A stretch of 64,000 nt of DNA, from the NCBI GenBank assembly GCA_947034885.2, contig OX344749.2, positions 28,783,501-28,847,500 on the forward strand, in the 5' to 3' direction. Numbering within the stretch: the stretch's first letter is position 1; the number at the start of each line of letters is the position of its first letter. The DNA is from Thuidium tamariscinum. Its lineage: Eukaryota; Streptophyta; Bryopsida; Hypnales; Thuidiaceae. The position numbers and the translations under genes are program-made. Positions 5,028 to 55,372 of this stretch are shown here, piece after piece. The notes below the pieces were generated by a model, which was not told the DNA's origin, ran no database searches, and saw only the letters and a program-made list of their open reading frames with translations.

Positions 5028-5029
5028 TA

Positions 5030-5390: not shown

Positions 5391-5539
5391 TATCTTCCTA
5401 TAGTAGTTTTATGCAATTGAAAACTATTATCAATCATAGAAACACACATATTAACATTAGAGTTGCCCGACATTCCATTTAGGCTAAATTTACACGTATC
5501 ATATCACTAGATTGTGAGATTGATGTGGATCTAAAGCCC

Positions 5540-6272: not shown

Positions 6273-6276
6273 TTAA

Positions 6277-6819
6277 AAGGGTGGTAGTCAACCCCGGTTC
6301 TTTTGCGAAGTCCAAAAACAAGATAAAACGATAAAGATTCTTAATGCATATAGTTTCAAACCAACCAATGGCCAAGAGAAAGTGAACAACACCAACATTT
6401 TCAACTTCGTTTCTGCTCCCTCTGATCCTACATACACATTCTAAATTACCATATTCTCCCTCGTATTCTCTGCATAGAAAAACCCAGACAAGTATTCTTG
6501 GCATTCAGATCCTACATGTTACATAATAATAACAGGTTACAAAGAATGTGCAGATGATCCTCCCAGAAATTGAGAGTGATGCGACTGTCTTTTGAGAATT
6601 GCCCACAAGTTTTGGGGCAGCCCCTACTGACATACGACTGTACAGAATATCTAAAACAATGTAATCTCCTGAAAGCATTGTACACTGTACAAAACCAATA
6701 CAACCTTGTATTGGAAACAAGGGAGGATACCAATGAAACTGCTATGATTCTGCAACATCACCAAACCTGGAAAACCCAAACTGTTGGTTGGGTTCTTTTA
6801 GCCAGTAAATTTTGGCTCC
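6277..6819. other. 3' flank of the F-box/kelch gene
   Basis: No coding exon is recognised. The stretch lies directly downstream of the minus-strand kelch gene and probably contains its 3' UTR and polyadenylation site. Confidence 0.3.
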
Positions 6820-9075: not shown

Positions 9076-9800
9076 GCGCTTCCAACCACTTCAAACCGCA
9101 AACTTCAAAAACCAATCGCAAACCCTAATCATCCCGCATTCCCCCGATTCCCTCCTCATCCATGAATTCACCCAACTGGTGTACATGCCGAATCTCCGCC
9201 CCATCGCGTCTCCATCACGCAAGCCCCCTCTTCAATAGTGACCCACCAATTCCACGAAAAGGCTAAAAACCCAAATGGTTCCCAACCCAACCCACCCACC
9301 CACCCAATTGTTCAAGACTCCAATTCCCCCTCAATACATGTTCAAAAATCACGCAAACACTCGCTCCAAAGTGCTCGAAACTCGGCAAATCAAAAGGAGA
9401 GTGCAATTGTGGGGAGGAGAGCGATGGCGAGGGAGCATTGAAACCCTAGGCAGGGGCTCCCTCTGGCTCCCTGTGCTCTGTGCTCTTGGAGTGCGTTTCA
9501 CAAACTTAGTGTGGTGTTGGGCAATTCTCTGAGTCCTAGAGTTGCTTCCTGCATTGCTTCCTTGGAGTCGTCAGTTGCTGCTTCCTTCACTTCGGTACTG
9601 CAAGCGACTGGGGGGGCCAGCTGGGAGTTGCATGGCCTTGGCAGTGTGCGAGAGGATGAGAGGGTGGCGTGGCCTCCACTTAGGATCTGTCTCGGGGTCC
9701 ACCTCGGATTCTGTGGGGCTCCGTGCTCTCTCTGTTTGCTGTGAACGAGATTGGAGAGATTGCAGCTTTTGATAAATGGAAGGAGAGAGAGGATCACACT
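9076..9800. other. Upstream region of the F-box/kelch gene
   Basis: Probable promoter and 5' UTR of the minus-strand kelch gene. A C-rich CCCACCCACCCACCCAAT-like stretch lies near 9,290. Short overlapping open frames on both strands at 9,500-9,800 look incidental. The tract ends where the repeat element at 9811 begins. Confidence 0.35.
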
Positions 9801-19912: not shown

Positions 19913-20640
19913 CAACTTTAAGAGCCTCTCAAGACCTCAAAAATTGATATTTTCCTATGAATTTTCTTACAACATCATTTGTAAGTGAATAACATGCATG
20001 CTAAATTTCAATGCCGAGAGATCTACACAAAAAAAGATATTCAAAATTTACCAACATGTGTAGCAGTGAAAAACATTTCACTACTTTCAACTTTGACACC
20101 CTTCTAAGGATTGAGTTTTTTCTTTTGCCATTAAAATTTTGGCATGAAATGAACTCTATGTTTTGAATATGTGTGAAAAATTTCAAGGTCAAAAGATTAA
20201 TTTAAAAAAAGATATTTGAAATCTCCCAATATGTATAGTTTTGAGAAAATTTCACAATTGCCAACTTTGACACCCTCCCAAGGGCTGAAAAATTAGTTTC
20301 TTACCATGAATTTTTTTTGTGAAGTCATATCTATATTGATAATATGTGTTCTAAATTTCAAGTTCAAAAGACTTACCCACTAAAAAGAGATCTAAAATCT
20401 CCCCAACATGTGTAGTTGTGAGGGTGAGTTCACTATTGCCAACTTTGACACCTTCCCAAAGGCTGAAAATTTGTCTCTTGACCATGAAAGTTTTTGCATG
20501 AGATCATTTCTATGTTGATAATTTTTGTTTCAAATTTCAAATTCAAAAGACTTATCCAAAAAAAGATATTCAAAATCTTCCAACATATGTAGTTGTGAGT
20601 ATGAGCTGAGTTTTTACATTTGTGTCAAACTTTGACCCAC
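19913..20640. repeat. Diverged tandem repeat, period about 176 bp
   Basis: The landmark CAACTTTGACACC or a close variant occurs at about 19913, 20088, 20262, 20440 and 20625, with spacings of 174-185 bp. Each unit also carries a GATATTCAAAATCTTCC-like block and an ACATGTGTAGTTGTGAG-like block. An inverted partial unit follows at about 20,655-20,790. Units differ widely, so the array is old. Confidence 0.7.
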
Positions 20641-22199: not shown

Positions 22200-23108
22200 G
22201 GGAAGCTCTTTATATACACATACAGAGGTAGGAGGTCAAGCAACCCATATGGAATATATGAATTCTTAAAGTTGTAAGAGCTCATAGTTAAATTAAAAAT
22301 CCAAAATTTTGTATTAAAATTAATATTTTAGACCTCATTTAAGTATAGTAGAATGTCTTTTTTCAAAAATATTTGAACTAAGACTATTTAGAATATAAAT
22401 TGAAGTTTCAAGTCCAAAAATTTGTTTGACATTTCAAGTTTCCAATCAGAAGTTATGGACAGATTTCAAAGAGGAAGTTTCAAAAAATATAATAAGAACA
22501 ATTTCAAACACCTCTTTGAAATTTCGTAACTTTTAATTGGAAACTTGAAATGTTAAAAGAATTTTTGTATGCAAAACTTGAGTTCATTTTCTAACTCAAT
22601 TGTTGATTCACATTAGGTTAGAAATAAGAATTGTGTTGAAAATAAGACTTCAAACCTCATTTAGGCGTAGAAGAATGTGTTTTTTCAAAAAAACTTGAAC
22701 TAATCTTAGTTAGAAAATCAACTCAAGTTTTGCATACAAAAATTCTTTTAACATTTCAAGTTTTCAATCAAAAGTTATGAAATTTCAAAGAGGTGTTTGA
22801 AAGTGTTCTTGTTATATTTTTTGAAACTTCCTTTATGAAATTTGTCCATAACTTCTGATTGGAAACTTAAAATGTCAAACAAATTTTTGAACGTGAAACT
22901 CTAATTTATATTCTAACTAGTTTTAGTTCAAATGTTTTTGAAAAAAGACATTCTATTATGCTTAAATGAGGTTTAAAATCTTAATTTTATTACAAAATTA
23001 TGGATTTCTAATTTCACTATGAGCTCTCACAACTTCAAGAGTTCATATATCCCATATGGGTTGGTCGACCGCCTACCACTCCACATATATAGAGGGAGTT
23101 TTTCTCCC
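22200..23108. mobile_element. Large foldback element (about 0.9 kb palindrome)
   Basis: Two arms of about 400 bp (roughly 22,205-22,610 and 22,700-23,105) are reverse complements with modest divergence, separated by a loop of about 90 bp near 22,650. Outer ends begin AAGGGA. Matching landmarks include CCCATATGG near each tip, AGAGCTCATAG and CAATCAGAAGTTATGGACA. It contains no open frame of note. The long inverted arms suggest a foldback or Mutator-like non-autonomous element. I did not find a target duplication. Confidence 0.8.
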
Positions 23109-31885: not shown

Positions 31886-33642
31886 GCCTTACACACTCCG
31901 AAGCACCCCACTAGGACATTTGGTCCACTCCAAACAAACTGACATACTTTACTCCATATTTGACACAAATTTTCAACTAGTAAACACTCACAATTACAAA
32001 GAAACAAAACTTACATGGCTAGTTAGGACTTGTATTGGCATACTCTTGACAGTGGTTAAAACAAAATGACTTAGAAATCAAACTAGTAGGAGACTAGGAA
32101 GATGACAGCTACCAACCATCACCAATTGACTCAACTAAATTCACTTACAAATCCTCAATTGACATGAGTTGGAATTCCAACTTGGACACTTATCACTCAT
32201 CTATTTACTACTTGCTATAGCTACCAACTAGGAACACTTGTCCTGCCCAGAAAGGACATTTAGTTAACTTTGACAAAATCACTACCAACTTGGACTAACC
32301 CATATACAAATACAAACGCACAAATTCTTACAACTAGAACACAATAAAAACAAAAGAACATAGCTTGCCTATCTAGGACACGCACTGCTTTCTCTGCCAA
32401 GGTTGCTACTATGTAAGTGGGGAGCAACGAGCGTTGGGTGTTGAGCATTTAGCATTGAAATTTTATTTTAAAATTGTGAAAATTTTCTAAGTTTTCACCA
32501 TAATATGCCTATGTCAATGGTTTCGAAGAAAAATATATAGCTATAGAAGTGTCTAATGAGAACAAATGAAGATGAATGGTTGGGGGATTGTCTTTTAGAA
32601 CAAATGAAGATGAATGAGGATGGATGGAAATGAATGAAGAATTGAAGATGAATGGAGATGAATGGGGATGAATGGAGATGGATGAATTTTTTGGATGAAA
32701 TATATGTATTGTTCATCGCATTGAATGAAAAAAGGTTTGGAAGATTGAAAGATGAGATTAAAAAAATATCTCTTTAGGCTCAAGGATAATTATAAAGTAT
32801 TAAAGGTCCAAAGTTTTAGGTGACTTTTTGAAAACTAGAGACCTATGTTTTACGTAGTGTTATAATACCATTTCAATGAAGGTACCATTTCTAATCAAAA
32901 TTTATAATTCCTTTTAAGCATTATAATTGAGATTCATCAAATTTATTTCTATATTAACTCCAAGATTTATCATATTATATAATACTAACATTTTTTTACT
33001 AGTAATTTTATTTTAAATAGAACCATATTCTTAAAAAAGTGAAATGTTGCTAATTACAAGAAATAGATTTTATCTACAAATATTCCTAAAAATTGACATG
33101 TAAAATGAAGAAGTCTTTTAAAATGGGGGATTGTCTTTTAGAATAAATATGACCTTTATTACTACACTTAGGATCACAAGAATGAAAAATAATTCAAGAA
33201 TATGATAAGGTACAAAAATGTAGTGGCCCTTTTAGTCTCACTACATGATATTAGGAAACCAAGTAACAACATTAGTATTTAAAACAAGATCAATTTGATC
33301 CAATACCACATATGGAAGAAGAATGATGAATGTCTTTACTACTATCACTGCATATAGGTCTTAGTGTCTCAACCTCAACTTGAAGGGCTAAAAACTTTTT
33401 AAAAACAACATTGTATGAATGATGTTTGGCAATATGAATGGGTGATGGAGTCTACTATAACTATCGCTAGAGTCTTGATGTAACATGGCAAACTCTTGGC
33501 ATTAGTAGAAGGTGAGAGTTCAAGATGCTAAAGAAGATTGCTTCTACAAAATGCGAGGAAAAAACAATTAGAAGGTTCAAGATAATTTTGAGATATCAAA
33601 CAATAAAAGAAAATGAAGACATGCATGAAAACAACAACCAAT
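31886..33642. other. Spacer with a GATGAATGG minisatellite
   Basis: No gene recognised. 32,575-32,690 is a simple purine-rich array of GATGAATGGA-like units. The segment at about 32,050-32,110 shares an ATGACTT(A/G)G(A/G)AATCAAACTA-type block with about 49,910, so both belong to an unidentified interspersed repeat. Confidence 0.4.
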
Positions 33643-36600
33643 TTACTTACAACATTGTCTCTTTGGAGGCCTTGCAAAGGGCTTCACAATGTCTTCATCA
33701 TCAGAATCATCCACCACTAAGCATAGAGGGTGTTTGACTTGATTATTGGCAATGAAAGTAGGAGGAATGTTCAAAGATTGAAGGAGAGCTTTATAAATCT
33801 CAGTATTGCTCTCCAAGGCCACCAAATGAAGTTCAATGTTGTGGCATGCTTGAATAGAGGTCCTTGTTCATTCAATAGAATGTCATTAGTTATAATTTGT
33901 AACAAATATGTGACACTCAATTTAAAAAGAAGATGGTTTAGAAAATGATAGCTAATAGAACATACCTATAGATGCGTAACAATCTAGCACCACATTGCCA
34001 GGTTTTGAAAATGCCTCAATTAATAGCTGCACAAATAAAGGATCCTTCTCACAAGCACCTCTCCACAGAACTGTATCATTTATAAGTTGAGTTTGTGAAG
34101 AGGTGAAGTTGTGGAGAAGGTCAATTTCTTCAAAGTTTATGCCTACATTGCTAAGTTATTGGTTCACATAGATAGAGAACTTAGACACCACCGATGATTC
34201 CTCCCATTTGCTTCATATAAAAAGAAAGATTTGAAAGAGCTGTGTCTGCTAAGGATAAACAAGTTTCTCAATTAATATTTGACGAATACAATGTTGCAAG
34301 AAGTAGGTTCAAACATTTAAAAATAAACATTAGAGTAAGTTCAATGGAACTTAACTTATCCAATGTTTGGATTTTTTTCTAACTAGAAAGCTTCAGCTTG
34401 TTCACGCTCATTCATGAATCAAGTAGACAAAAACCACATACATCAGCATACTCAAGTATAAATCCCTTTACCTTACCATTCTTTAGATAGAATAACAAAA
34501 CTACTCCATTATCATGAATGTGCTTTGAAGCAAGTTCAAAGATGGGTTCAATAACCTCTTCTTCATTAAAAATGTTCCATACAAGAATATAGGATGGTGA
34601 AACTAAGATGTTGGGGACCAATAATCCATCTAGGATATCTGCAACAATCAAGTCAAAGTATAGAGCACGCTTCTCATTGCCTTCAAGAATTTGCACCCAC
34701 TCCCTCCTAACCTTAATATAAAAAATATACAATTTTAGTTGTATGAATGAATTGCAATGTCATCTTTATAATGTGTAAAAGAAGAGGAAAGAATTAGAAT
34801 AAGACTAGGGAGCATGGCTCTTATTTTTTTGGCAAAATCAAGCATTTCATTCCATGATGGTGTATTGTCCCTTATCTTCTCCTTGATACTGAGCATTGTA
34901 GATTTGTAGAAATCGATGATGGTAGAATTAGAGATTGAGGCTCAATTCCATGTTTATCAGATTGAATTTTTGATCTGGCAACGTACTTAGATGAAGCAAA
35001 GACGTTTGTTGTAATAGACATAAGAGTTAGAGGGCAATAAAAATGAATTGTGTCAATTACATCAATAGTACTACAAGGCACAAGAGGAAGAGGTGCAACA
35101 ATAGATGCACGCATAGATGAAGAGGGGGTGTCATTGTTGGTGGTATTGTCACTCTTTGTCTTCTTTGTAATCTTCCTCTTTCTTGGCTTGTACCCTTTCT
35201 TTATTAGTACAACTTCCTCATGTTTGTCTTCTTCATCTAGAGACTTTTGTTGTGTGATTGATTTGGGATGGTCTTTGATAGATTTTTTTTTAGTCCCTCA
35301 AGAATAGGGGCAAAAGTTCTTAGACACTCTGAATACTAAGAATAAGCTTGAAGTTCTTGGATAGAAATCCCTTGCTGTTGAATCAAAGTCAACATACAAC
35401 CCTTCAAAGATGTATTAAGTCATCTTCTAAAAAGCTCGGGCATAGATCTCTTTTAAATCCCACCTTTTTTGAACCAACTCTTATTTGAAATATCTAAATT
35501 CATAGAATAAATGAAATTATTGCAATGATGAAGATGCAAATGTCATTATTTCAAAGATTTGTAAAGTAAGTAAGCAACTCAAATTTATGCAAATGAATAA
35601 AATTGAAGTAAAAGGTGTACCTATAGTCTTATATAGAAGCCTCTTTGTTGCTACATCTGAATCATCTTGCTCTTTGAAAGGAGTAGACCTTGAATATGAA
35701 GAATCCTTATTGAAGAGCCACCAAAAAGCATGACCCCGTAATACAATACGCCATGTCTCCACGTAATCTTCAATTGTATCTAACTCACCATGAGCACTTT
35801 ATTGAACCACAATGTTTTCAAATTTGATGATGCTTATGAATTCTTCTTTAACTGCTCTTCCAACTGTAAAGAACTCCAACAAAGTAAATATAACATTGTT
35901 TAAGGAAAGCATATGATGGTACAACAATAAGATAAGAATGAAAATATTCATAAACTTATAAAAAAAAGTATTGATTATATAGATGAAAGAAAAGGTTCAT
36001 TATATACCTTAGCCTAAAAAACAACTTCAAAGAGTTAAGTTTCTAAAGTTAATGTATTGAAACTAAGAGCAGAAAATTTGAAGCCTTCCCTAGAAGTCTC
36101 ACTGGAGTTCCACAAATGAAGCCAACAAACCTTGTAGTGTGGTTGAACTACACATGTAGATATCCCTTGAAGTTTTTCCAGTGACATTTCCGGCTTTTCG
36201 TTGGCGTTGTAATGCAAATAGATATGAAATTTCAAAGAACAAAACCATAGTAAGAACCAACACCAAAAGTAATCATGCAATTCATTCATTTGCATGCAAT
36301 TAAAATTATATACAAGTTCTTCTAAAAACCCAACACCATTTTTGGGATTTGTAATAGTTGATTACTTATCAAATTTTGTTCGAAATCCTTTGATAGCTAT
36401 AGTAGCGGCTAGGGTCATGGCATCATGTACTCCTATTAGAGTTCGATCTTTGGGCTTGGTATTCTCATAGTACGTTCCTAGTCTTTGTACTATTGCATCT
36501 AAAACAAGGATCAAAACAAGGTAATAAGAGCCAATTTTGACACACTTATAGGTCCTTTTGGAGGTCCTTTTTGAAATTTTCAAAGAATGTTTTATTCAAA

Positions 36601-37930
36601 AACTTCATCAATTTCATCAAAATTGATTCTAAAAATTGTTCAAAGTTGTTAATATTGACAAATTCTATTCAAAATATTATAACTTTCAATTAAAAAAATT
36701 TTAAATTTTCTATTTTGAATTTCACCTAAAGACTAAAAAGCACTTGTTACATGAGGTTTTTTATGCTTAATTAAAATAAAATGATAATATAATAGACAAT
36801 AAAATGATGTAATATGACACTATAACATCTATGATTCTTAAACCATAATTTGTTAAGACAAATCTATTCAAATTTGAGCTTTAAAATCAATAATTGTTCA
36901 AGAAAAGCAATTGGCTCCTATTACCTCATTTAGACCCACAATAGCAATCTCTTGCTGCACATGAAAAATAAAAATATTAAATCAATGTAGAACAAATTCA
37001 AGAAAATTTAGCAAGTGAATGAAAAACTTTTTCAAATATAGAACACTCACCCAATGAAGGAATTGTATGAAGATGTTTGATGTTGATGGATACCAAGTAC
37101 TTGGTAGTTTTCAGTTCTTGCATTTTTGTAATCCTCATTGTTTAAAAGACCTTTAAATTCCTCCAGTTTCATGTTGTCATAGGTATTCATCTTGTGTAAT
37201 TGTTGAACCAAATTGCTCTTGACATGGGAATGCACTGTAGACCTATAATTAGTCATAAAAGTAGAATGTAAGATCAAGGAATTTGAAACCATAGAGTAGT
37301 ACAACATGCCAAAGAAAGTAATGAAGTTCAAAAAAAACATTTATAATAGAAATAGAAACTCACCAATTGATGTTATTGATAGCCTCCAATAAAATGCATG
37401 TATGACCCTTTGATACCAAAAACATACAATCAACTTGCATATACCACTTGCGATCACTTTGATGCATCATTTTGATGTAATCATATTAGGCTGCAAATTT
37501 ATAATTGTCATTGAAACACAAAAAACATATGGTTTGACAAATGTGAAATAGATGGTTGAGACTTCAACCAACACTCAAATCGGTCATTTTCCTCTATCCA
37601 ATGATCATCCCATGTTTCTACAATCTTTGGGATTACTAATTTGCATAGTCCTTTGTCATTTGTAGTAGATACATAAAGTACACGATCACCTTATCGGTAT
37701 CCATAGACAAACTCTACCTTCAATCATTTCACGTGATTTTGAAAGAGTAGACGGTCCAATGGAAGTCTTATCATCATGTACGAAGGAATATCAAAGTACA
37801 ATCCTCATTCACCATTGTTGAATAGCATGTTATTGATGACAACATTGGAATCAAGTTTTTGACCATTGCGCACATTTTGTTCCACCTCCTCCACAGTTTG
37901 ACCCTCAAAAGCTTGATCAATACCTTTTAC
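33643..37930 (-). pseudogene. N4/N6-type DNA methyltransferase-like locus, degraded
   Basis: Multi-exon minus-strand locus with motifs of SAM-dependent DNA amino-methyltransferases. Read 5' to 3', exon-like blocks are: 37,560-37,930 (AFEGQTVEEVEQNVRNGQK; at least two in-frame stops), about 37,380-37,470 (CMFLVSKGHTCILLEAINN), 36362-36470, 36035-36230, 35517-35762 (TWRIVLRGHAFWWLFNKD), a lysine-rich block at 34872-35330 (KPRKRKITKKTK, a likely nuclear signal), 34412-34732, 33960-34110 and 33643-33800. The last three give a motif IV-like FDLIVADILDGLL, then LIEAFSKPGNVVLDCYAS as motif I, then LHLVALESNTEIYKALL as the SAM-ribose acidic strand. Motif IV before motif I is the beta-class order. The DPPY/NPPY core is replaced by DILD, so even an expressed protein may be inactive. 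I infer a decayed nuclear gene; it may be part of a transposon family. Confidence 0.55.
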
Positions 37931-38189
37931 ATTGAACGATGTGGTTCACATACAATGAATGGTACATTGAAAATTAAAATTTTAGTTAATAGTAAAAAGC
38001 ATTGTAGTGAATAGAATGAAAGCATTAAAACTCAAAGCAAAATGAATCATAGTTGTGCAACAAGAACTGTCAATGAAAAATGCATAAAAACAAGAAAAAT
38101 TTGAAAAAAATCTTATTGGAACAATGGTAACCATAGGCTCGGAATCATCATTGATGATGAAGTCTTATCCTTCTACATGCATAAGCCCT

Positions 38190-40645
38190 CCATCAACGTC
38201 TTTGAAGCTCTATTTCATCAACAAGGTGGTATTTTATAAGCAAAATCAATCATTGAAAAAAAATCTAAAACGTGTCTAGCAATGCAAGCTTAAACTAAAT
38301 GATCACAATCCTACAGAATCTAAAATTGTCACCTCATTGATGAGGTGTGACTTACAATCAAAATGAGCCATTGAAAAAAAATCTACAACATTTCTAGTAA
38401 GCTTGGACTAGTTCATGCATGTAAACCCTAGAAAGTCAGAAATTGGCATCTTGTTGACGAGGTGGTGTTTTACAACCAAAATTAACCATTGCCAAAAAAA
38501 ATTCAAAACATGTTTGGCAAGTTTGGACTAGTTCAAGACAACCCTAAAGAGCTTGAAATTGCCACCTCGTTGATGAGGCGGTCTTATACAACCAAAATCA
38601 TCCATTAAAAAAAAAATTTAGAACATGTTTAGCAAACTTTGATTACCGTACGCAGTGGTCGGTTTCAGCCGTCACTAGCCGAAATAATAATTTTTTTAAT
38701 AGGGCGTGACTTTGGCACCCCTTTTTTCTTTTTTTCCAAATTTCGACAAGTCACTCAATATATATTTGAGTTTTTAGCATCTTTCCTTGCTGTTTTAAAC
38801 CTGACATTTGTATCTCTTTTCCAAACTCATGGCAGGTGCTCAGGTGGGAGAGCAATCTAAACTCTCCACTTGATCATTTCCCACTTGTGCGTTTAGCGTC
38901 GGCCATTTGAGGTATTGGTATTTGTAAATTGCTTTTTAATAATAAATAGTCATATTTATGAATTGCTTTTTAGGAAAAACCTTTCATTTACAAAAGGATT
39001 TATGAAGCAACTTGGTATTTTTGACTTTGTTGAAACTTAAAAGCATGAATCATAATTTATAAACAATCCTTCATGTACAGGGGTAGTATTAAATAAACTT
39101 TGCATTTCTATAAAGTTTTAAAATATAAACTTAATTTAACATCCAAATTTTTAAATTGATAAAAAAAGGTTGATTTATATAAGTGATTGTTTTCAGGTAC
39201 TGAAACTTAATACCATAGCCAAGATGGTGTAGGTCAATTTCATTATTTTGCATGCATATTTCAATGCATAATTGTAAATTTGTAATATTGTTGAATGTTG
39301 TTCCATTTGTGTCATGTTTTTATTCAAAATTCCTTACATTTACAAATAAGTACCTCATTTGATTTAGTATTTGTAAACTTTGACATAATTACAAAAAATT
39401 TACAGTATTAGGCAAAGTTGCTTAACAATTTTTTCAAATATTCAACAATTTCTGAAAAATATTTAAAGAATTTAGGCAATTTCAATTTCAATTAATTTTT
39501 GCCAAATCCGACCCGTGTGTAGGGTAGTTCATTACAATCGTAAAGAGCTTAAAATTGCCACTTTGTTGATGAGGCAATCTTGTACAAGCAAAATCAACCA
39601 TTGAAAAAAAATTCTGAACATGTCTAGTAAGCTTTGACTAGTTCATCAGAAGCCTAAAGAGCTTGAAATTGCCACCTTGTTGATGAGGCGGTCTTGTACA
39701 ACCAAAATCAGCCATTGAAAAGAAAATTCTACAACATGTTTGGCAAGCTTAGACTGGTTGATCACAACCGTAGAGAGCCTAAAATTGCCACTTCGTCAAC
39801 AAGGCGGTCTTTTACAATCCAAATCAGCCATTGACAAAAAAAAGACAAAACATGTTTGGCAAGCTTTGACTAGTTCATCACAAGCCTAAAGAGCTTAAAA
39901 TTGCCACCTCGTTGACGAGGTAGTCTTGTACAACCAAAATCAGTCATTGAAAAGAAAATTCTATAACATGTTTGGTAAACTTGGATTGGTTGATCACAAT
40001 TGTAGAGAGCTTGAATTTGCCACCTCGTTGACAAGTTAGTCTTCTACAACCTAACTCAACCAACAGGAAAAAATTCAAAAACAAGTCTTTGAATCTTTTT
40101 GTAGCCGATTGCAACCCTAAAGTAGAAAGCTTGAAATTGTCCCCTCATTGACAAGGCGATGTTCTACATCCAAAATCAACAATCAAAAAGAAAATTCTAC
40201 AACATGTCTTCTAAATTTGCGCTAGCCTAAGGACAATCGTGAAGAACTAAAAATTGATGCCTCATTGACGAGGTAGTGTTCTACATCTTAAATCAGCAAT
40301 TGAAAAAGAAAATTTTGAACATGTCTTCCAAACTTGCGCCAACCCTAGGGCAATCGTGAAGGGTTGGAAATTGATGCCTTGTTGATGAGGCAGTATTTTA
40401 CATCCTATATCATCATTCGAAAAAGAAAATTTTGAACATGTCTTCCAAACTTGTGCGAACCCTAGGACAATCGTGAAGAGCTAGAAAGTGATGCCTTCTT
40501 GATGAGGTAGTACTCTACACCCTAAATCAACAATTGAAAAAAAATATGAACATGTCTTCCAAACTTGCACCAGCCTAGTGACAATCGTAAAGAATTGGAA
40601 ATTGATGCCTCGGTCACATGGCAATGATCTATAACGCTAGAAAGT
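38190..40645. repeat. 116-bp satellite-like tandem array with a palindrome in each unit
   Basis: Landmark GCCACCTCGTTGATGAGGCG (with variants) recurs at about 38,216, 38,330, 38,446, 38,561, then 39,555, 39,671, 39,787, 39,903, 40,019, 40,139, 40,257, 40,374, 40,491 and 40,606. The spacing is 114-120 bp. Each landmark is an inverted repeat, CCTC-GTTGAT-GAGG. Units also share AACATGTTTGGCAAGCTT-like and ACAACC(A)AAATCA(G/A)CCATTG blocks. A transposon at 38646-39524 splits the array. It lies between exon-like blocks of the minus-strand methyltransferase-like locus, possibly in an intron. Confidence 0.85.
38646..39524. mobile_element. TA-flanked DNA transposon remnant inside the satellite
   Basis: This 879-bp insertion has TIR-like ends, CCGTACGCAGTGGTCGG and, inverted, CCCTACACACGGGTCGG. 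TA lies just outside each end (38644-38645 and 39525-39526). Removing it rejoins one satellite unit cleanly: AACTTTGAT-TA before, GTTCATTACAATCG after. The interior is AT-rich and has no transposase frame. The TA target suggests the Tc1/mariner group. Confidence 0.75.
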
Positions 40646-43600
40646 ACTGAAAGACAAAAAAAATGTTACTTGCATTGGTGTTTTGGTGGCTTCGATTTCT
40701 AGAGCGTTGACACCTTCGCTGTAATCGGGTACACCCTTGCCACTTTTGTCAAGCACCTCTCCATCCTTCCGCATCGTCACGCTTTGTAAGTTCATTGCGA
40801 AAGAACATTTAAGCAATGTGCAATGCAACACACAAAGAAAACAAAAAAAGTATGGAAGAGAACAAATCCCGGGACAAATCCTAGCATGTTTGCATTGGTC
40901 TAATTTGGGAAAGTGGGGAAAAAATGCCTTTTTTGAAACATTCCAGAATCTTAGGCATCTATCTAATGCACTTCCAAGCTAAAACAACCCTTTTACAGAA
41001 CTAAGCATATCTGTAAAGCTTTTTTACACTAAGGCTTTTAAAAGTATATATTGTAATTGCAATAATTTTATCTCTCACCATATATGTGTGTGCTTAACTA
41101 TGAATAACCAGTGAATTATTACTAAAACAATATCAAGCTTGATTTTATAACAGCCATCACTTCAAGTCAAAATCTCAAGATGTGCTTATTTTAAATACAA
41201 CCAACTACTTGTAAAATAATGGGAGTACATCTAATGTAGGCTAAGCCAAAATAGACAATCAAATCCAACATCTAGACATTATATTAGCAATGATAAAAAC
41301 ATCCATCAAGTAGTATGAAAATAAAACTGCATCGTAAGTTTTTCTATAACTTTTGAGCTAAAAAAACTACAAGTATTAGGAGGACAAAATGTTGAGATCT
41401 TGAGTCCAATACTTTCTCTAAGAGGTTGAGGTCCTCGCCTATGCCCATTCGAAAAACAAGACCACGAAGTATAGGTAGTGTATATACACCAAGTGTCTTC
41501 AGCCCATCAAAATGTGTTATAATTTTTACAAGGAGAAAAAAGAGACAACAAATTAGCACAAATAATCCTCAATCATTCAAAAAACCTACGTAGAGTTGGT
41601 CTGAATAGAAGCCATGGTAAGAACATAGTAGCTTAGAGAAGTGAACTATAAAATTAGGTGATGTAAGACAAAGCTCCCAAAGCTAAAGAGAAAATAAACA
41701 ACAAGTAGTGAAGCTAATTCTTAAACCATCCAACATACAACAATTAGTAAGTTGTTTGGTAAGGTAATTGTCAGTGTATTAGTGGCTAGCAATTTTTATC
41801 AAAGTCTCATCATCCATAAAGCATGGAAAGCTATTCATCAGCTCATGTTGGAACCTTCAATGTATGGTAAATAATGGTAGCCCTCAAATGCATCAACATT
41901 TGATACAAATCAGTGTAGTAAGCATGTTCACCCACCTAATTAAATGAATTTTAAGGCAAATCTTTAGAGTAACCAGCTCATTAGCGAACTACATCCAATC
42001 AGTCCTTGCCATCAATAAAGTATTCTCAATTCATTATTTGTGATATAATACTTTGAACCATCCATTTTAAATAACTAGCTCCATAGGCAAATGTCTAGTT
42101 TTGTATTTATTATTGATTTGAAGGTAATTCTCATCCTTATTCATACTTTGTAAATAAGAATTTAATTACAAAAATATTTTTTTCTATATGTATGTTGTTA
42201 TATTATGTAGTATTATATAAATCATTAGAGAATCATATAGTGAATACAAATAAGCTATCATAGATTCATAGTATTCAAAGAGTTGTCTTAAAATTTTTTT
42301 TTTAAACTTTTAGGAGAGTCCTCAAAAAATTATTGCATAATAAAAGGTATGCTAAAAGTGGTAATAATACAATATATCTTTATCCTTCAATTTATATTAA
42401 AGATCTAAGAATCTAAAATCTATTCAAACCATTTTGTTATTTACATATATTAAATCCAAAAAGTAGGAATCTAATCATAATTTAAGAGCCACTAGGGTGA
42501 TTGCAAGAAAGGCCTCCCATTTTTTGTCTCATATTGCTATAGTACTCATTTTTTCAAGAATACTTAAAAATAAAAAAACAATTTTTTAAAAATGAAAAAT
42601 ATGTTCAATGTATATTTCTTGAAGAAGAAGAAGAAGATACCCCATGAAGGAAAAGTGTAAGAAAATTTTCTAAGTAGGTGAACTAGACAAGTGCAAAAGA
42701 TCATGAAAATGAGCATTTTACATTTTTTTTTTAAAATTCGTAAAAAATAGGAGAAGACACTTTAAGAAAAAATAAAAGTTTTCAATTTGAGAAGGATTGA
42801 TGGTGATGAGATTTCACCAAAAGAATGATTTTGAAACCATTTTCAATGTTTAGAATTGCATGCACAAGAGGTCCCTATTTGCATGAATGTAGAGGATATA
42901 AAATATTGTTTTTTTCAATTCTTTTTGGTGGACACATGAATCTCTAGTGTAGGAGTAGACTACATAAATTTCAAGTCTACATCATTAATTTTGGATACTT
43001 CACAATACTAAAAACCCCTAAATTGCAAAGTGTGACAAATTAGCTAAATTAAAATTTATGTAGAAAATGTTTTTTGAATTTTTTGAAAAACAAGGAATCT
43101 TATTATTATCAAGTTGGCCATCTTCAATAAAAATTTCAAGTAAATTAGCTTAATTCCCCAAAAGTTATAACCAATGGCATGAAAGTCACTTCAATTGTGA
43201 CGCCAAATAGTACAATCATTTCTTGCAATCACCCACTAGTACTTAGGGTGGGAATCTAGAAAAAAAGAAAAAATAGGAAGATTTAGGGCAAGATAATTTC
43301 CTGAATAAGATCTGTGGTTTTGAAGTTTTTGGGTTCAAAATTTTTCTATGCATAGATTATAACCTTAGTAGCCATTTTGAATTTTTTTTTCAAATTTTTT
43401 GGACTCATGATCGATTTTACAAAAATCAGCAAAGTTCTCTAAAAATTATATGGGCAAGATTTGATCAAAAAATCTACTAATTTTGAAAATTTTAGATAAG
43501 ATTTCAATATGCTAAATTCATTTTTAGACCGTAAAATGTTTAAAAAAACTTCGTTTTTTACATGCTATATATCGTTGGAATCGTCTTTTCAATATACATG

Positions 43601-44030
43601 AAATGGTATTGTATTCCAAATGCACCTCTAAGAAAAAAATTCATGTAAATTCAATTGTTCACATTTTGAATTTCTAATGAATCATCTTCTATCAAAAAAA
43701 TAGATGAACTTACCAACTCTATACTTTCTAACAATATGATGTCCGCAAGGGCACTTGATTGACACACTTCAACTTCATCTATGCTATCAAGCTTAACTAC
43801 CTTCGCTTCTTCTATAATTTGTATAGAACTATCCCTACATTGAATATATCCAAATTCAACTCTATCATCTTTATACAGCAAGGTCTAAATAGAACTACTT
43901 ATATCAGCTCCATTGGCTTTCTATAAATGTCGAACCATCTTCAATTTCTCTAACTGCTTCTTACTAGAAAACAAAAGATCCACCTTACGTCTCTTTTTAT
44001 GAGAACTCTTTGGCATCCCTATAAAATGAA
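40637..44030 (-). pseudogene. Possible 5' exons of the methyltransferase-like locus
   Basis: Minus-strand blocks with coding character continue upstream of the satellite. They are 43,710-44,012, starting MPKSSHKKRRKVDLLF (a basic nuclear-type head) and continuing with KDDRVEFGYIQCRDSSIQI after two in-frame TAG codons, with a GTAAGT donor; about 41,830-41,950 (GEHAYYTDLYQMLMHLRAT); 41,370-41,510 (LGVYTLPILRGLVFRMGIG); and 40,640-40,800 (EVLDKSGKGVPDYSEGVNA). No domain is recognisable in these pieces. I link them to the downstream methyltransferase-like blocks only by strand, order and style, so they could be a separate gene. Confidence 0.3.
42780..43260. repeat. Interspersed repeat B, copy 2 (without the MITE)
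   Basis: Same order of landmarks as 17,930-18,730, including a GATGAGATTTCACCAAAAGAATG-like segment and CAAAGTGTGACAAATTAGC. It lacks the family C MITE; the matching point is near 42,873. It therefore records the pre-insertion state. Confidence 0.6.
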
Positions 44031-44104
44031 AATAGTGACATGAAACTAATTTTATTTCTCTGGTATCAACTTTGTCATCTTGACTATACATAGCACTCTT
44101 GAAG

Positions 44105-44379
44105 TCTAATCATTTGAAGGCTCCCGAGGGCCGTTTTAGGGTTTGTTCCCAAAAACTGTTGGAGAACTATTGGCTATTGTCAGCAGGCAATTAACCAAAA
44201 AAAAAAATTGTCCTAAAATATGAAAATAAGTCCAATTTTTTTTTTCAATTTTTTTATAATGACATGGCAGTCACTCAACCACTGTGGATTCTTGCACAAT
44301 TGTGTTCCTACGGTCGATTATGTATTTTTAGGTTGTGGGAATTCACAATCTCCTAGAGGCCTCAAATCCCTCCTAATGG
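44105..44379. mobile_element. MITE family C, copy 2 (inverted)
   Basis: Aligned to the reverse complement of 18028-18303, it shares GGGCCGTTTTAGGGTTTGTTCC-like sequence near one end, CCTAAAATATGAAAATAAGTCC-like sequence in the middle and CTCAAATCCCTCCTAATGG at the right end. It is non-coding. The left terminus is eroded. Confidence 0.6.
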
Positions 44380-45229
44380 AATGCATTTTCATCCAATTGA
44401 ATGGAAAGGCATCTATTTACAACAACATAAACGATCACTAAGATCATTCCTTCTTTGCTCAATTGCCTCATATTTGTTCTTACATTTGAACATATCATCT
44501 CTACAATAAGAAAGCCTCCATTTCCTAGCTTTAAATGTGCTCCCATCTTCTACATGTGGTGCTATTTAAAATCTATAATCTAACCAAGGATTGTCTAATA
44601 TTAATTCAAATACAAAAACTCAATTGTTGGCCAAGTTTGAAATCCTTTAATGTAAGCCTTTCCAAATTCAAATTTCAAATCACTAAAAGCCAATATGCAT
44701 AAATGACTACTCTCCATATCAACTACTTCAAAGCCTTTTGCCTTATACCACAAATCAACAAGCTTTCAAATGTTAGCATACAAGCAAAGACCATGAGTAA
44801 AAGTTTGTAGATTGTATGCATATGCCAACATGGACATGGCATTTGTTTGCAGTGATGGGTCTAGCATTCCAATATCATTTTCTTGCAATGATGATGGTAT
44901 AGCATGGGTAATTGTATTGATTTTTACTATAAGGTTCAACCTTAATTTGTTGTCTTTGTAGATGGAAGAGGAGCTATTTGATTTCGAGGGAGGACAACCT
45001 GTGTCAACTGTCATGCAACTAAAGATCAATAGTGAAGAAAGAAATATATAGAGACTCTCCTCCGATAAGTACCATGCATTCGGAACCCCAAGTATTGCAA
45101 GATTAGTGTCACCTAATGTTGTTATACTTGAATCTGTAACGTCTACAGTGCAGATGCCTTGAAGAAGTCATCTCAAAGTAGAGCCTTCAAATCCTATCCA
45201 TATTGATCTTAGTGAGTCTTTAGATGACA
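44380..45229. other. AT-rich spacer
   Basis: Minus-strand open frame 44766-45029 (87 aa) has no recognisable motif. Nothing else is supported. Confidence 0.25.
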
Positions 45230-48200
45230 ACGCTATTTTTGTTAGTGAAGCAATTGGAAAGTTGTCTCCCATACTTGAGTTTGACAAAGATACTATTTTG
45301 GTGATGAATCAAGATGTTCATGGTAGCACTTTACCTCCTTTAGATACATAAAATTCAATGCAAGTCCACAATGTCTTTCAATGCCATAAAGATATGCAAA
45401 GTCGTCTACGTGCCCGTAATGAGTCGAAATTCTTGAACCTAGATGAATTTCGAGTTGAGTCCGTCCCTCATATTCCACAATCATTCAATGGAGATGTACT
45501 TTTTGAATTGCCTTGTCTTTCATCTCCGTCATCTTCCTCTGCTGCTTTGTCCAAATTGTCATCCTCCTCATTTGTAGGTCGTTTATTAGAAGGCATGGAT
45601 CAAAAGTTTGATGGCCGGATACATATAAGCACACATATACACTACGGATATCACTAATGACTTTGGTTTAAAGTTTTTCTATTCTTTTTTAATTGGGCAT
45701 TTAATATGCAAGAATCTAGATTGCCCTAGAATGCATTGTGGTGGAGACAAAAACAAAAGTAAGCAAGACGGGTTATCACCTATTATCTTTGTTGTAGAGA
45801 ATGAATTGCCTACAAAATTTATTGTTGTTAGTCGAATCTACAAACCATCCTCTTCTTGCAAGTCATTAATTCATTATGCCCTTGCCACATGTATAGGATC
45901 TTCAATTCTAATGGTTCATGGAGAGCTTGTATCCATATTGGCTATCACAAACATCCTATTGGAAGGGGTGTTTATTGTGCACCTAATGAGCGGATAACAT
46001 CTTTGATAAATTAGGAAGTTTATAAAACATCGTCTGCCACTAATTTAGCTATAAGTCTTGCTACTAGCAAAGAGTTCCTTGCATCTAAATTGTTTCAGAA
46101 TGAAAGACTAGAGGGTGAGCCAAGGCCTCTCAAAGGTTAGGCACTAGAAGCAGTGATGGAAAAGTTTTGAATACTCAAATCACCAAGTATCTAAAATACA
46201 ATCTCCAACTTCTGGCATACTATTACTATAAAAAAATGAGTATCCACAATGATTGCAAGATGTTTGCAAAATGACTATAGTAGTCATTTTGCAGTCATCT
46301 TGTAGTCATTGTGGGCACTAATTTTTTTGTAGTGTATAAGTGGAGGACCTATTGACAACATCATATCATTGAAGAAAAAAAGTGCATATTCCTACATCCT
46401 AGATAGTGTTTTTTTTGAGGCCAAGGTAAAGAAAAGGTTTACCTTTTCAAGATGTTTGAAGAAGGTCGAGCAAATAGGGTCGATCTTATGAAGTGAATGC
46501 AATTTGGTAGAGATTTACAATCATCTTGATGCATGTTTGACTATGTCAAAAGGGTGAAGGCATGGACAACAATGGCTGCGCATGCATATGATGTAGAGTT
46601 TTGTTGAGTTCTCACCATTTGTGTTTGTGACATGATGAGTGAAGATGCGTTGTCACAAGAGCAAATGTAGAGATCTCTAAATTTTGTTATGGAACACCAC
46701 AATATTCCATCTTCAAATTTTAAGGGCTTCATGGCTGACAATGTAATGACCAATTGGCATGCTGTTCATATCATATATGGGAGTGGCAACAAACAAGAGC
46801 CTAGATGCAAGATCGAGAGTGCTCGTGTTTACTTCATTGGACAACATCTTTGAATAGATACACAAAAAACCACATTCAACCTCAATCAGTCAATCCCAAG
46901 ATATTCACAAAATTTTTTGTAAAGAATACAAAGATGCTAAAATAATGGCTGAAGTTGAAGAAAGATACCTTCAAATTAAGGGTTGGTGGCATTCTTCAAG
47001 GGTTGCACCCAAGGATATCCTCTGAGCTCTTGTTGATTGGCTTGGCTTTGGGCACTTTTGCTATCAACAATGAGGTGGATTTTTGGAGTTGGTAAGTCAT
47101 ATGCTTCTTAAGTTCTCCAACATTTAGGACTAATAATTCAAATTGTATTCAAAGAAAAATGATTAAAGAGTTAGAAATTCATGTCTTTAAAATCTAATGA
47201 CTTTCTTACAATACTCTAGTAAAGTACAAATTACAGATGTTGTCATTTAGTTTTGAATTCACAAATAGGTATTTCAAAATTCATAACCTAGAAAGCTTTA
47301 TTGTATGAATGTAAAACATTTGTCGTATTGCAGTCTTGCAGAACCCAAGCTTGGAGGAACTAGGAGAAATGCCTCTTTGCAACCTAGCAGAAATAGTGTA
47401 CAACAAGTGGTTGTAAAATGTTCAGAAAGAGAGATATTTGTTTGTATGTTGCTACTACAGATGACATGATGGGGGCAATTCAACAGTCTACCAACTATTG
47501 GGCGTACCTTCAAGGATATGCAACTGGCATTGGCCTAAACTTGGACAAACTTCGCCTTTGAGCTGCAAGATGAAGCAAGAATCTGGCAAAGTTTGCCGAG
47601 ATCGTTGCCAAGCTTCCTAGTGCCTAGTTATTCACTATGTAGGTCTCGTACTTTGAAGGCTCCATGAAGCCCAAATTAGATCTTTCACTAGGGTCGGATG
47701 GTGGTTCCCATTGCCACGATACAATTAACTTATGTGCACCAATAGTTCAAACTAGCTCAATTACAACAAGGAGAGAAGCAAGCGCATCAACGCCAACTAT
47801 GAGAGATGAAGGTGAACCAAGTGCAATATGTCCACATCTACTAAGGTTTTTAAAATTGATTGTAATCCTTCTTTGTGGCACATTGCTAGGTGTAAGAAAG
47901 AAGGAAAGACTTGTCATGCCGTTCAAGTCAAGATGAAGAAGAAATGCAACGCCAAGATAAACATATCAAAAAAGAGTGGAACGGCAACACCTACCTACAA
48001 TGTCCGCATGATTGTATATGGAACAAAGGCCATCATCAATTTGATTTTTGGTTTTGTGCAAATGACCTTCATCATTGTATAGGACAATCTAAGGTGAAAT
48101 GGGTTCACAATTGGCCCTCTCTTCCAATTGCATGGCCTGTAGCAAAAGGAACACATCTCACCAAATCAAAGATTCTTTCTTTGGAGGAAGCTAGGTTCCA

Positions 48201-48720
48201 ACTACAAGCTGAAGAAGTAGGCAATGTGACCTTCCACCTTTTTAATGAAGAGAACGCGGAGAAAGGTATGTTTTCTCTTTGTCCACCACAGATGGATATT
48301 CATTTGACTCTGATGTGCATCTTACAAAGCGATTGGAGAGGACCATTAGACGTAACCCTAATACACCTACAATTGACTACCTTTATAAGTAGGAGACAAT
48401 ATGAAATTTGAAATTTGTCATTCAATTTGTAGTTGTCATTCCATACCTTGGATATAGGCGAGTGATAACTTTAATGTCAAGTATCTTTCCCCACCAAAAG
48501 GTATATCGCGTCACAATTTTAGACTTCCCTGCTTGTACCTGCGAAGATTTTGTTACTATGAGTCTAGTTGTACTTGGTAGCAAGAAATCATAGATGAATT
48601 GCAAGCATCTGTATTATGTCTTCAAATTTGTATGCAAGGCAAATTCTAAAAACAACAAATATTTCTATACTCCAAATCTGAGCTTCAATGAAGTGAAGCT
48701 ATTTCTTCAAAATAGCAATC
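45230..48720 (+). pseudogene. MULE-like transposase gene with SWIM zinc finger, degraded
   Basis: A plus-strand coding-like trail crosses this region. Blocks include 45358-45657 (KFLNLDEFRVESVPHIPQSF), 45731-45997 (SRIYKPSSSCKSLIHYALAT), about 46,020-46,140 (TNLAISLATSKEFLASKLFQ) and 47,660-48,410 (KIDCNPSLWHIARCKKEGK). The last block is near 48,510-48,640, where FPACTCEDF is followed by NCKHLYYVFKFVC, a C-x-C...C-x-H SWIM zinc-binding arrangement. MULE transposases and FAR1-like proteins combine such parts. Frame changes and stop codons are frequent, so it is a decayed DNA-transposon gene. A 111-bp CACTA-type hairpin has inserted into it at 46224-46334. I did not find long terminal inverted repeats. 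Confidence 0.5.
46224..46334. mobile_element. 111-bp CACTA-type foldback MITE
   Basis: The inverted right end reads CACTACAAAAAAATTAGTGC and the left end TACTATAAAAAAATGAGTAT. TAT lies directly outside both ends (46221-46223 and 46335-46337), a 3-bp duplication. The whole element folds on itself through blocks such as CACAATGA and GCAAAATGACTA. It has no coding capacity. Confidence 0.75.
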
Positions 48721-48837
48721 TATAAGATCTTGTGAAGACGTCTAGTAGTAGATAATGAAGTTACCACCAATTTTGTTTAGAGGTGGATAAGTAATGGTTC
48801 ATTGTTCTAGCTCTAATGTACTTCGAAGGCCAACAAC

Positions 48838-49061
48838 GCTAGTATGTGAGCATAGAAGTGTGAGCCAATGAGCCTTGAGCCTAAGTATAAATAAGTATCC
48901 TACACTCATTGAAAGTGTTTATAATATAAACACCTATAATATATGTACTTAAAACATAGATACACTATTACCATTGAGGTGTCTATAATATAGACACCAA
49001 TACTATAGGTATATAGAACTCTAGGCTCATAGGTTCACATTCTCTATGCTCATATACTAAC
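48838..49061. mobile_element. MITE family D, copy 2
   Basis: The left end reads GCTAGTATGTGAGCATAGAA and the inverted right end GTTAGTATATGAGCATAGAG. Inner arms also pair (GAGCCTTGAGCC with the inverse of CTAGGCTCAT), and the centre contains GTGTTTATAATATAAACACC. A diverged relative lies at 18946-19171. It is 224 bp long and non-coding. Confidence 0.65.
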
Positions 49062-51358
49062 AATTAGGCTTCAAAGGCTAATCACTTGAAAGGAAGAATA
49101 GTTTGTTCGAGGACTTTTAGGACCTATTTTAATCATTTATAAAATAATAAACATAAAAAAAATACATAAAAAAAGATGAATTCAACAAGACAATGGGGCA
49201 TTGTGATTTGAGTGAAGTTTTAAAGTTCTACAAATGATATGGGAAGATGCTCTTTGGTTCCGAGGGACACATTATCATAGCCAAAAAACATTATTGAAGT
49301 AATTGTTCTATGGTTTTGTAGTGAATATTAATGGCCTTTAGGATTCTGAATAGCTCTAAATGATGAAATTTTTTGTTGTTGCATAAATTATTACATTTCT
49401 ACAAATGACCTCTAAGGTGGCTATTAGATTTCAAAGAGCATTCAAGCAATTCAAAATTAGATAAAAAACTTCCAAATCAACAATACAAACCCTAACAAAC
49501 TCAATAAACTTATATCATTCATAACTATAAATCTAAACCAAAAAATTAAATTTTGGGGGATATATAGCAAAATTAAAATGAAGTCTTATTTGAATGGATG
49601 ATGGTTGGATGGATGACATATGTGAAGTTCACTCATACAATATACTTATAGATGCAATAATCTGTTGATAAAAATTCAGTGTATATTTGTAATATAAAAT
49701 TTACAAAGTTTTTACCAAATTTTTCCTTTTTGGATTTTTGACATTATTATATTGGTATTTGACAAATTAATTTATTATTTTGATGTGTTTATTTTTAGTA
49801 TATATTTTTATTATGAGTGCTCAAATCTAATTGCTCATTGCTTAACGTTAGCTACTCCCTACTTACATGGTAGTGTTGTTTCTCTCTTTGCAAGTGGGTA
49901 AAATACAATGACTTGGGAATCAAACTAATAGGAGCCATTAGAACCAACAAATTCAATCGGAAGGCTGAAGAAGATTGCTAACTATCCATTTGTTGCTAAT
50001 TGACAAAACTTCCCAATTGGACTAGATAAAAAAAAATTTCAATTCGGACATTTTACTAACCAATTGGCTCACATGACTCACACTCTAGTTTGGAACCTCA
50101 TGGACCACCACTTATTGCCCAATTGGAAATTGACCCCTTCTATTTGGAATGCCAAACAGACCTCTTGTCGACAAACCCTCCAAATAGAAAAACCCACATT
50201 GGCCCAAAAATCCACGACATCGTTATAAAACTGACGCCAAATTGATTGAAACACTACTCAAAATAACCAAATTGGAACATAGATGAACAATTTGACTATT
50301 AAAACCAAGATAAATCCGCAAAAAGATATACCATAATGGTCAAATATTACTTCAACTAGGTTATTTACATCTCCCCTTTAAAAAAAGATGAAGAAAAATA
50401 TCTAACAAATGTTAGGATTTAAAATTCATCAAGTAAATGAATTATTTAGTGAAGGTACAATGGCATTATGCAATACAAAAGCATATGAGACAAAATAACA
50501 ATGCAAAATAATCAAAATCAATGTAAATGATCTTTTGCAATGCTTACTTTTTGTGTGTAATAATACCTTATTAGTAAGATCTTGAAAGACACCTTGCTAC
50601 TATTGTAGAAAAAATTTATGTTGCAACTTCATGCTTTTTACATATAGTTGCCACATGAAATAAAGTAGAACAATCCAATTCCAACATCTATTGGACCCTC
50701 CCATTTACATCAAGGACCTACCCATTACCACAATCTTAGCAACCATTTAGCATCATGACAATGCACTTGGGGAGGGGATATACTAAGGTGTAATTTAACA
50801 TGGATCTACCTACATTTTACCAATTTTGTCCCAACAAAACTATGAAAAATCATAGAAAATTCAATTCATGTCTAAATGTTGTAATTCTACTTGCAAATGA
50901 CTTCTCTCAAATCTCTCAATCTTTGAAAAATATGTGAGTTGACAACTAGCTTCTTTAAGGTACCTAGATAGCAAATCTGCTTGGTAATAAGCATGGTTAC
51001 CTTTTTCTTTACACCCTTGCAATCTTCACTATATACTTGACAATATAATGAAGCTACAATAATGCTTTTGGATGAAAAATTGTTGCCAAGACCTCTGCAA
51101 TAATCTTTTCTACAATTTCACTAACTCCAAGAATGACCCTCGCTTGGCCACATGGAAAAATGCTGAAATTTTATATTCTCCACACATGATAAAATTTGCA
51201 AATTCTGAATTCATATTTGCAATCTAATACCCCAAATTAGTCAGGAAACGAGGTCTACGTAAATTACTTGGGCACAAAATAGCTTTTATTTTCACTTGCA
51301 CCCCTGAAATGACTTGGTGTGGCCGAGTGAGGGCCGGGGCCAGTTCACCCGGATCCTG
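49062..51358. other. AT-rich spacer with unidentified repeat material
   Basis: No gene recognised. The segment at about 49,830-50,000 shares short blocks with 32,050-32,430. The tract 50,700-51,200 has somewhat coding-like minus-strand composition, but I cannot assign it. The last few hundred bases before 51,359 are the probable 3' UTR of the minus-strand TPR gene. Confidence 0.3.
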
Positions 51359-54032: not shown

Positions 54033-55372
54033 TTGAGAACCTCGTACTCTCCAATCGAACTAAAGTATGCAGTCGTCAAAACATCCAATCCTAAACCGAA
54101 CCAATCGAAGTTCTATTGATGACGTCAAATCTTCGATCTTAGCAACATTAAACTTCCAGAAACGAAAAAAATCAAGTTCACATTAATCTCTCTCTGACAA
54201 TCTCTAGCTATGAGAAGTGTATGCAATCTACTCCAAAGCTCAAAAAAAAGAACCAGGAAAAGAGCAAGGCAATAGTCACGAACTGATATCGTCTTGAAAA
54301 TCAGTTGGTCTTGCACATCTCTACACCATAAATCCCAAGTGCAGTGGACTGCAGCACTCACACGAAACAGAATCCTCTGAACTCTGACGCTGAAAGAACT
54401 GAAATTGAAACACAAGTACAAGAGCTTGTCAGCAGGTCGGTGCAAAGATACAATTGCGAGATGGTCACTGAGAGCTACGTGCAAGCATAGCGTTCAAGAA
54501 CATTTTCACTTTCTCGCTCAGCGGGAATTTGAAGGTTTTTCCAACGATTTTCAATTACACCAGACAGGTGCAGTCGCAGCTCAAGAACACAGGCGGTTAA
54601 AAAAACACAGAGAAAAGCGTAGAGCTCGTTCTCCCCAAAACTCGAATCTGGAATATCCGGCGGTTCTTCGTAATAAATGCTTGTAATAAGAAACCCAGCT
54701 CCAAGAGGGAGAAGACGAAGAAGCTCGGGCACCGCCATCGTTGTGGCATCAGCAGAATTCCGGTCGCAAAAATTGTTTGATGACGACGACGGCGGGCACA
54801 AACCTCACGGTGACGGGTAACCACCACGGCACTGGTAACCGTGGAAAAGGCAAAGCATGATGAAAGTGAGCTAAACCAGGGGACCCCAACCAATGCTGGC
54901 TGGCAGCCTCGTGTGCTCCGCTTGCTCCCTCGTTGCAGATGCTCCGTCCACCACCAATTGCATTCTCACTTCAGCAATTTTCAGGCTCTTCACGTCCCAT
55001 CTATCGCCATTTGCACTTCTCGTGCAATGCGACCATGCCCCAGTTCTCTCGCTCCTGCTTGAGTGCGCTCATAATCAATCTCAGAATTTGCAAAGCCCTG
55101 CATAAGCCCTGAATACCTTAGTTTTTTATTTAATTTTTTTTCTGTTTTCACGTAAACATTCTTCCAATATTTGCTCATAGCCCCAATTTCCGCATTTCAT
55201 CTCGTTTCTTCTCGTGTCTGTGATTCTCTCGGTAGAGTTTGCGATTGAGATTGTGTTCACTCCTTGGAGAGGTTTTAGGTATTTAGATTGCGTGCAATCC
55301 TCGGGGAGTGTGTTTGAGTTTCCGTTTTAATTTGGTTTGTGAGTTGAGTGAGTGAGGGTTTTCTGTGTGGCC
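54033..55372. promoter_or_regulatory. Divergent intergenic region of the TPR and pyruvate kinase genes
   Basis: About 1.3 kb separates two start codons facing away from each other. The right part (about 54,840-55,370) is C- and T-rich, as expected of the pyruvate kinase promoter and 5' UTR. A minus-strand open frame at 54475-54801 contains a hydrophobic, membrane-like segment (ELYAFLCVFLTACVLELRL). It may lie in the leader of the TPR transcript or be chance. No core promoter element could be fixed. Confidence 0.4.

Follow-up and report, generated by a model that had tools for sequence, protein, structure and literature searches.

A methylase-derived accessory gene lacking its catalytic motif in a decayed DNA transposon of the moss Thuidium tamariscinum

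The window, a stretch of 64,000 nucleotides from contig OX344749.2 of Thuidium tamariscinum, contains a whole, decayed DNA transposon of 17,481 bp (17.5 kb; 32398..49878), recognised by both of its ends and a flanking duplication. The left terminal inverted repeat (32398..32458) matches the 3' end conserved among paralogous elements, whose end ...TAGCAACCC(T/C)G is common to divergent subfamilies and lies at 32398 in the window, and the right terminal inverted repeat (49821..49878) repeats the left one in inverted orientation. Alignment of the inverted left end placed the right end at 49821-49873 with a score of 50, in comparison to a maximum of 41 among 100 shuffles. The element was given these limits because the inverted end is accompanied by a target-site duplication in which 7 of 9 bases agree between TTTCTCTGC on the left (32389..32397) and TTTCTCTCT directly after the right end (49879..49887).

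Terminal inverted repeats together with a target duplication of about 9 bp are the hallmark of the Mutator superfamily. Both were found here, as the ends are inverted and, in addition to the partial duplication in the window, duplications of 9-10 bp flank five of the six young copies that were compared at both ends (9 bp in three copies, 10 matching bases in two and none in one). The three 9-bp duplications of young copies are TTTCTTACC, TAGTTTTTG and CTTTTCAAT; the opposite end, CAACGACGCTAAATTG..., was located from 10 copies of one young subfamily, and one young copy (L036/L016) spans 12.8 kb. Short insertions were also seen at about 1837-2478 of locus L009, starting CAGGGTTG, and at about 964-1500 of L040, ending CAACCCTG and with a 9-bp duplication; they probably represent a non-autonomous relative whose ends are similar. 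At L018 (about 4101-9306) a young-subfamily copy ends at 6652, where homology to the window subfamily starts, and one element appears to abut the other or to sit inserted in it. The transposon of the window is flanked by exons of ordinary genes encoding an alpha-kinase (3261-3779, plus strand), an F-box/Kelch protein (8065-9090, minus strand), a zinc-binding dehydrogenase (13791-14504, minus strand) and a pyruvate kinase (55352-55981, plus strand), and long tandem repeats with units of 175 bp and 322 bp lie outside the element at 20028-20599 and 22332-22918.

Within the element, the minus strand of 33643-37930 carries methylase motifs IV, I and II/III in that order, as the original prediction had described. 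The translated blocks comprise a basic linker upstream of the methylase motifs (34872-35297), likewise part of that prediction, a motif-IV-like block (34412-34759) containing ...FDLIVADILDGL...IHDNGVVLLFYL, a motif-I-like block (33952-34155) containing ...GNVVLDCYASIGMF and a SAM-ribose-type block (33643-33867) containing ...LHLVALESNTEIYKALL. Comparison with paralogues by tblastx extended the gene beyond these coordinates to about 37894-33450 and resolved it into exon remnants, all on the minus strand: an N-terminal exon (37514..37894; matching loci L028 and L020), exon 2 (37054..37244), exon 3 (36296..36472; L020), exon 4 (36074..36232), exon 5 (35628..35846), exon 6, which includes the basic, lysine-rich linker (34872..35460), a motif-IV exon with DILD in place of the DPPY or SPPY of enzymes (34352..34759), a motif-I exon with LDCYASIG (33952..34155), a motif II/III exon with HLVALESNTEIYKALL (33643..33867) and a last exon (33450..33494; L020). 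The gene is broken by stops and frame breaks, and the suspicion that it was a decayed relative therefore proved correct; it is the dead accessory gene, the second gene, of a dead DNA transposon.

The first gene, a decayed transposase at 44812..48722 on the plus strand, was recognised by tblastn with open relatives; its pieces are 22-57% identical to these (E values as low as 5e-59), and it is also interrupted by stops and frame breaks. In related elements, a long transposase-like gene occupies the strand opposite to the accessory gene and is divergent from it. This arrangement was quantified from the listed matches by setting 150 scored transposase places against 224 typed exon places: an accessory N-terminal exon lay head-to-head, 3-30 kb away, at 107 of the 150 transposase places listed, in comparison to a mean of 1.9 and a maximum of 6 in 200 trials of random placement, and the same 150 places included only four tail-to-tail and four same-strand pairs. 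At one relative, L024, a transposase open reading frame was not found within the 7 kb read. Mutator transposases are marked by a DDE core, a CxxH after the second D and a SWIM finger. The residues FMADSAQANW..CLFHW and CTC..CKH were found by eye in the present transposase, with no profile match; the Pfam MULE domain PF10551 matched neither of two transposase open reading frames nor the core, and the 70 PF10551 places in the genome come no closer than 73.8 kb to any of the 150 transposase places listed. The label Mutator-like is thus based on the duplications, the inverted ends and the residues seen by eye.

Between the two divergent genes of the window, TRF identified three tandem arrays with 116-118-bp units (38224-38639, 39525-40062 and 40143-40611; span 38224..40611), whose units contain the palindrome CCTCnTTGAnGAGG. 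All eight window matches to this palindrome (at most one mismatch) fall inside the arrays, from which the pattern was itself derived. Exact dyads in the window array occur at 3.4 per kb and are not enriched in comparison to 4.1 and 2.9 per kb elsewhere in the element. The array of L012, which is unrelated to that of the window, has 53 short dyads per kb versus 1.7 and 2.7 in its two flanks. Of the four element types whose upstream DNA was read, two had long arrays, namely the window and the L012/L016 type; TRF detected no array upstream at L028, and L024 had only a short 22/43-bp array.

Searches of the source genome (363 Mb, 19 contigs) demonstrated that both the transposase and the accessory gene belong to a large repeat family, each with at least 150 scored matches. 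From 512 first-look candidates, at least 150 matches to the motif-IV block alone were scored (tblastn, E <= 1), and its nearest siblings among the matches listed had 64-74% identity (E down to 1.9e-48). The N-terminal exons of two relatives each gave at least 150 scored matches, of 613 and 614 candidates, and the motif-I exon gave 174 matches out of 978 candidates, of which the best 150 were scored; the candidate numbers are not copy counts. An internal stop was counted by eye in 29 of the 150 N-terminal-exon matches listed and the remainder were open. The tblastx blocks were collinear along the whole gene with several paralogues, and this collinearity, together with the genome-wide matches, places the motif blocks beyond chance.

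In relatives L028 and L012 the accessory gene has about ten exons, with GT/AG candidates at the junctions inspected by eye, and exon order agrees across subfamilies by tblastx. In the encoded protein, an N-terminal exon with the sequence DGNHR is followed by a middle region, a basic linker and, at the C-terminus, the methylase-like domain. The Pfam domain N6_N4_Mtase (PF01555) was detected in all nine relatives whose C-terminal domain was spliced (best 3.7e-9), and PHROG DNA methylases also matched nine of nine. A check of the window against this profile had been suggested, and it succeeded for the spliced relatives and not for the window blocks, where one of nine open reading frames touched PF01555 at an E value of 0.014, short of Pfam's cut-off. 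The profile of the relatives matched DpnA (2.5e-8), CcrM (1.6e-6; positions 17-232) and MboIIA (0.018) in the PDB. A beta-class ancestry, which the order IV...I had suggested, is real because PF01555 is found in nine of nine relatives and the CcrM alignment extends across the domain; by these sequence comparisons, the C-terminal domain is descended from beta-class DNA amino-methylases.

The aromatic residue of [DNS]PP[YFW] is normally needed for amino-methylase catalysis, and active enzymes carry the glycine pattern FxGxG in motif I. In the alignment with CcrM, DPPYNL stands opposite dvpegL (DPPY versus DVPE) and FFGVGTT opposite the stretch ctastgas. No aromatic residue was found at the fourth motif-IV position in any of 29 distinct copies (32 rows, three of them repeats of a copy), where DVPE occurred in 11 and DIPD, DMPE, DCPE and others made up the rest; SPPY, the catalytic motif of the N4CMT type, was absent from all 29. 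Of the 29 copies, 28 keep the motif-IV Asp and 23 the second Pro; the first motif-I glycine is missing from all nine rows at the site aligned with FFGVG of CcrM, and the domain retains the motif order and acidic SAM-site residues. The idea of a working N4/N6 methyltransferase is not supported by these sequences, and we infer from these residues that catalysis has been lost in the accessory family. Intact DPPY-type paralogues, which the original prediction had suggested looking for, were not seen either: an exon-by-exon search of the genome with PF01555 gave no match at E <= 0.1 from 44 candidates, an absence of little weight because the same search also misses the present accessory family. Copies without the catalytic residue may thus serve their element otherwise than by DNA methylation.

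The signature DGNHR, present in the N-terminal exon of relatives and lost from the window copy, is ParB-like at best and is a lead only. Pfam comparison of the N-terminal domain returned weak similarity to DUF1015 (0.0049; three of eight members) and DndB (0.19; two of eight members), hhalign gave no match to one phage ParB-methylase and nine phage proteins, and the AlphaFold model of the domain had a pLDDT of 43.7. A ParB-like domain was thus not confirmed by Pfam, profile comparison or the AlphaFold model.

In one deep pair of relatives, L028 and L012, purifying selection on the accessory gene was evident, with dN/dS values of 0.05-0.12 in the five of nine exons with finite dS; these ratios are rough because the finite dS values were 1.5-3.2, and dS was saturated in the remaining four exons and in the transposase. 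For the same pair, dN was 0.254 in the accessory gene, 0.181 in the N-terminal part of the transposase and 0.078 in its core, indicating that the accessory protein evolves faster than the transposase. Close pairs were mixed and ranged from 0.21 to 0.95, the latter for the motif-I exon of L024 and L023. The window subfamily had dN/dS values of 0.57-1.75 in 13 of 28 pairs computed and is drifting, as expected of dead copies.

Transposons with DNA-modifying enzymes are already known in fungi and algae. The element Sola1-1_Ec32 of the alga Ectocarpus is described as encoding, opposite its transposase, a protein of 1104 amino acids with ParB-like and N4/N6-methylase domains, and similar proteins are reported there from transposons of green and red algae with reference to Iyer 2011 and Petroll 2025 (PMC12477816). 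According to that description the algal proteins resemble the present one as an amino-methylase accessory gene opposite the transposase of a large DNA transposon (PMC12477816). In contrast to the algal cases, the present family occurs in a land-plant genome, in an element with 9-bp duplications and with the catalytic motif lost in 29 of 29 copies, and where they have a ParB domain it has only DGNHR, with ParB unconfirmed; the land-plant distinction follows the account of the algae in PMC12477816, and earlier land-plant cases are possible. Our literature search recognised no methylase-bearing transposon from a moss or other land plant, with subscription papers mostly outside its reach, so that absence is unproven. 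The accessory family is apparently a land-plant, catalytically degenerate variant of the algal transposon methylase proteins.

Other systems share single features with this family. VANC of the Arabidopsis VANDAL elements is described as binding tandem-repeat motifs of its own element and inducing loss of methylation, and is similarly an accessory gene of a Mutator-type element with tandem repeats in non-coding DNA (PMC5735166); binding and anti-silencing are reported there and are proposed here by analogy. Fungal DNA transposons are reported to carry TET/JBP dioxygenases, proposed to aid escape from silencing, and thus also have a DNA-modification enzyme family as accessory gene (PMC12730594), although that is a different family acting as enzyme and the present one is apparently non-catalytic. 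N4CMT of bdelloid rotifers is, by the published account, likewise a bacterial beta-class amino-methylase captured by a eukaryote, but one that methylates DNA and combines SPPY with a chromodomain (PMC8885841); the present family is transposon-borne, and none of its copies read here contains SPPY. The protein P0001 of Wolbachia phage WO (ParB_N and N6_N4_Mtase) matches the profile of the relatives over motifs I-III (hhalign probability 92) and also has an extra N-terminal domain. It differs in possessing DPPY, its ParB_N match (1.6e-5) is just under Pfam's cut-off, and its N-terminal domain does not align to that of the present family.

We propose, with a probability of roughly 0.5, that the accessory protein is a pseudo-methylase that would recognise specific sequences of its own element and assist it, for instance against silencing, instead of writing a mark. 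The element is a DNA transposon with 9-bp target duplications, as in Mutator-like elements, and in its relatives two divergent genes encode the transposase and an accessory protein of roughly ten exons. The methylase-type domain has lost the catalytic aromatic and the first motif-I glycine and shows constraint in one deep comparison; the protein may bind its own element, perhaps at the repeat arrays between the genes, where it could act as a helper, for instance in anti-silencing as VANC does, instead of adding N4- or N6-methyl marks. The anti-silencing role is suggested by analogy with the binding of tandem-repeat motifs by VANC, and we infer binding, anti-silencing and loss of activity alike. 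The arrays are not general to these elements and that of the window is not enriched in dyads, which counts against the array-binding explanation; the roughness of the low dN/dS ratios, the value of 0.95 in one close pair and the missing Pfam MULE match also weigh against the proposal. The wider reading, that plant transposons have turned a bacterial-type methylase into diversified non-writing readers which recognise their own element via the arrays and shield it from silencing or reverse it, is tentative and on the doubtful side; if true, a DNA writer would have given rise to an anti-silencing system with no relation to VANC.

Among the alternatives, the accessory protein could be a transposition cofactor without an epigenetic role, binding targets or ends as is thought for maize MudrB. 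Mutator-like elements are known with extra open reading frames, and MudrB is described as apparently required for integration (PMC6446971). The linkage of the accessory gene to the transposase fits such a cofactor, but a methylase-type domain would be of no obvious use to it and the arrays lie between the genes rather than at the ends, and we regard it as unlikely, if a serious contender. An active methylase with an unusual motif (D-x-P-E/D), placing N4- or N6-methyl groups on the element that encodes it, would account for the constraint on the domain in one deep pair and for the retention of the motif-IV Asp and second Pro in most copies, and the Ectocarpus proteins have been suggested to perhaps modify their own element (PMC12477816). 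The lack of the aromatic in all 29 copies read and of the first motif-I glycine in nine of nine rows speaks against this, as does the reported abolition of 4mC addition by rotifer N4CMT once Ser and Tyr of SPPY are changed to Ala (APPA; PMC8885841), making activity distinctly improbable.

A functionless captured gene carried as a passive passenger would agree with the drift of the window subfamily; it is very improbable given the head-to-head arrangement with the transposase, the presence of the gene in subfamilies only 30-40% identical and a dN/dS near 0.1 in the deep pair. Least credible is a host methylase gene, akin to the N4 enzyme of liverworts, that decayed with no tie to a transposon. 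The original prediction had offered this as a lead and the beta-class domain suits it, but the ends, the duplication and the transposase all lie in the window and the locus is repeated across the genome; the element structure refutes it for the window locus. The other guess, a transposon equipped with a DNA-methylase-like gene of its own, was borne out by the same features and by the linkage of the two genes. Under the preferred reading of an element-binding pseudo-methylase, a family in which at least 150 matches were scored, and in which the methylase domain persists minus its catalytic residue, would show how a protein that writes DNA marks can turn into one that binds DNA as transposons and silencing contend. 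Since young copies are present, the question is testable within one genome. As a minor observation on distribution, the 17.5-Mb contig C11 had 1.6 transposase places per Mb in comparison to 0.20-0.65 on C1-C10, among the 150 listed, and is perhaps a sex chromosome or a poorly recombining chromosome.
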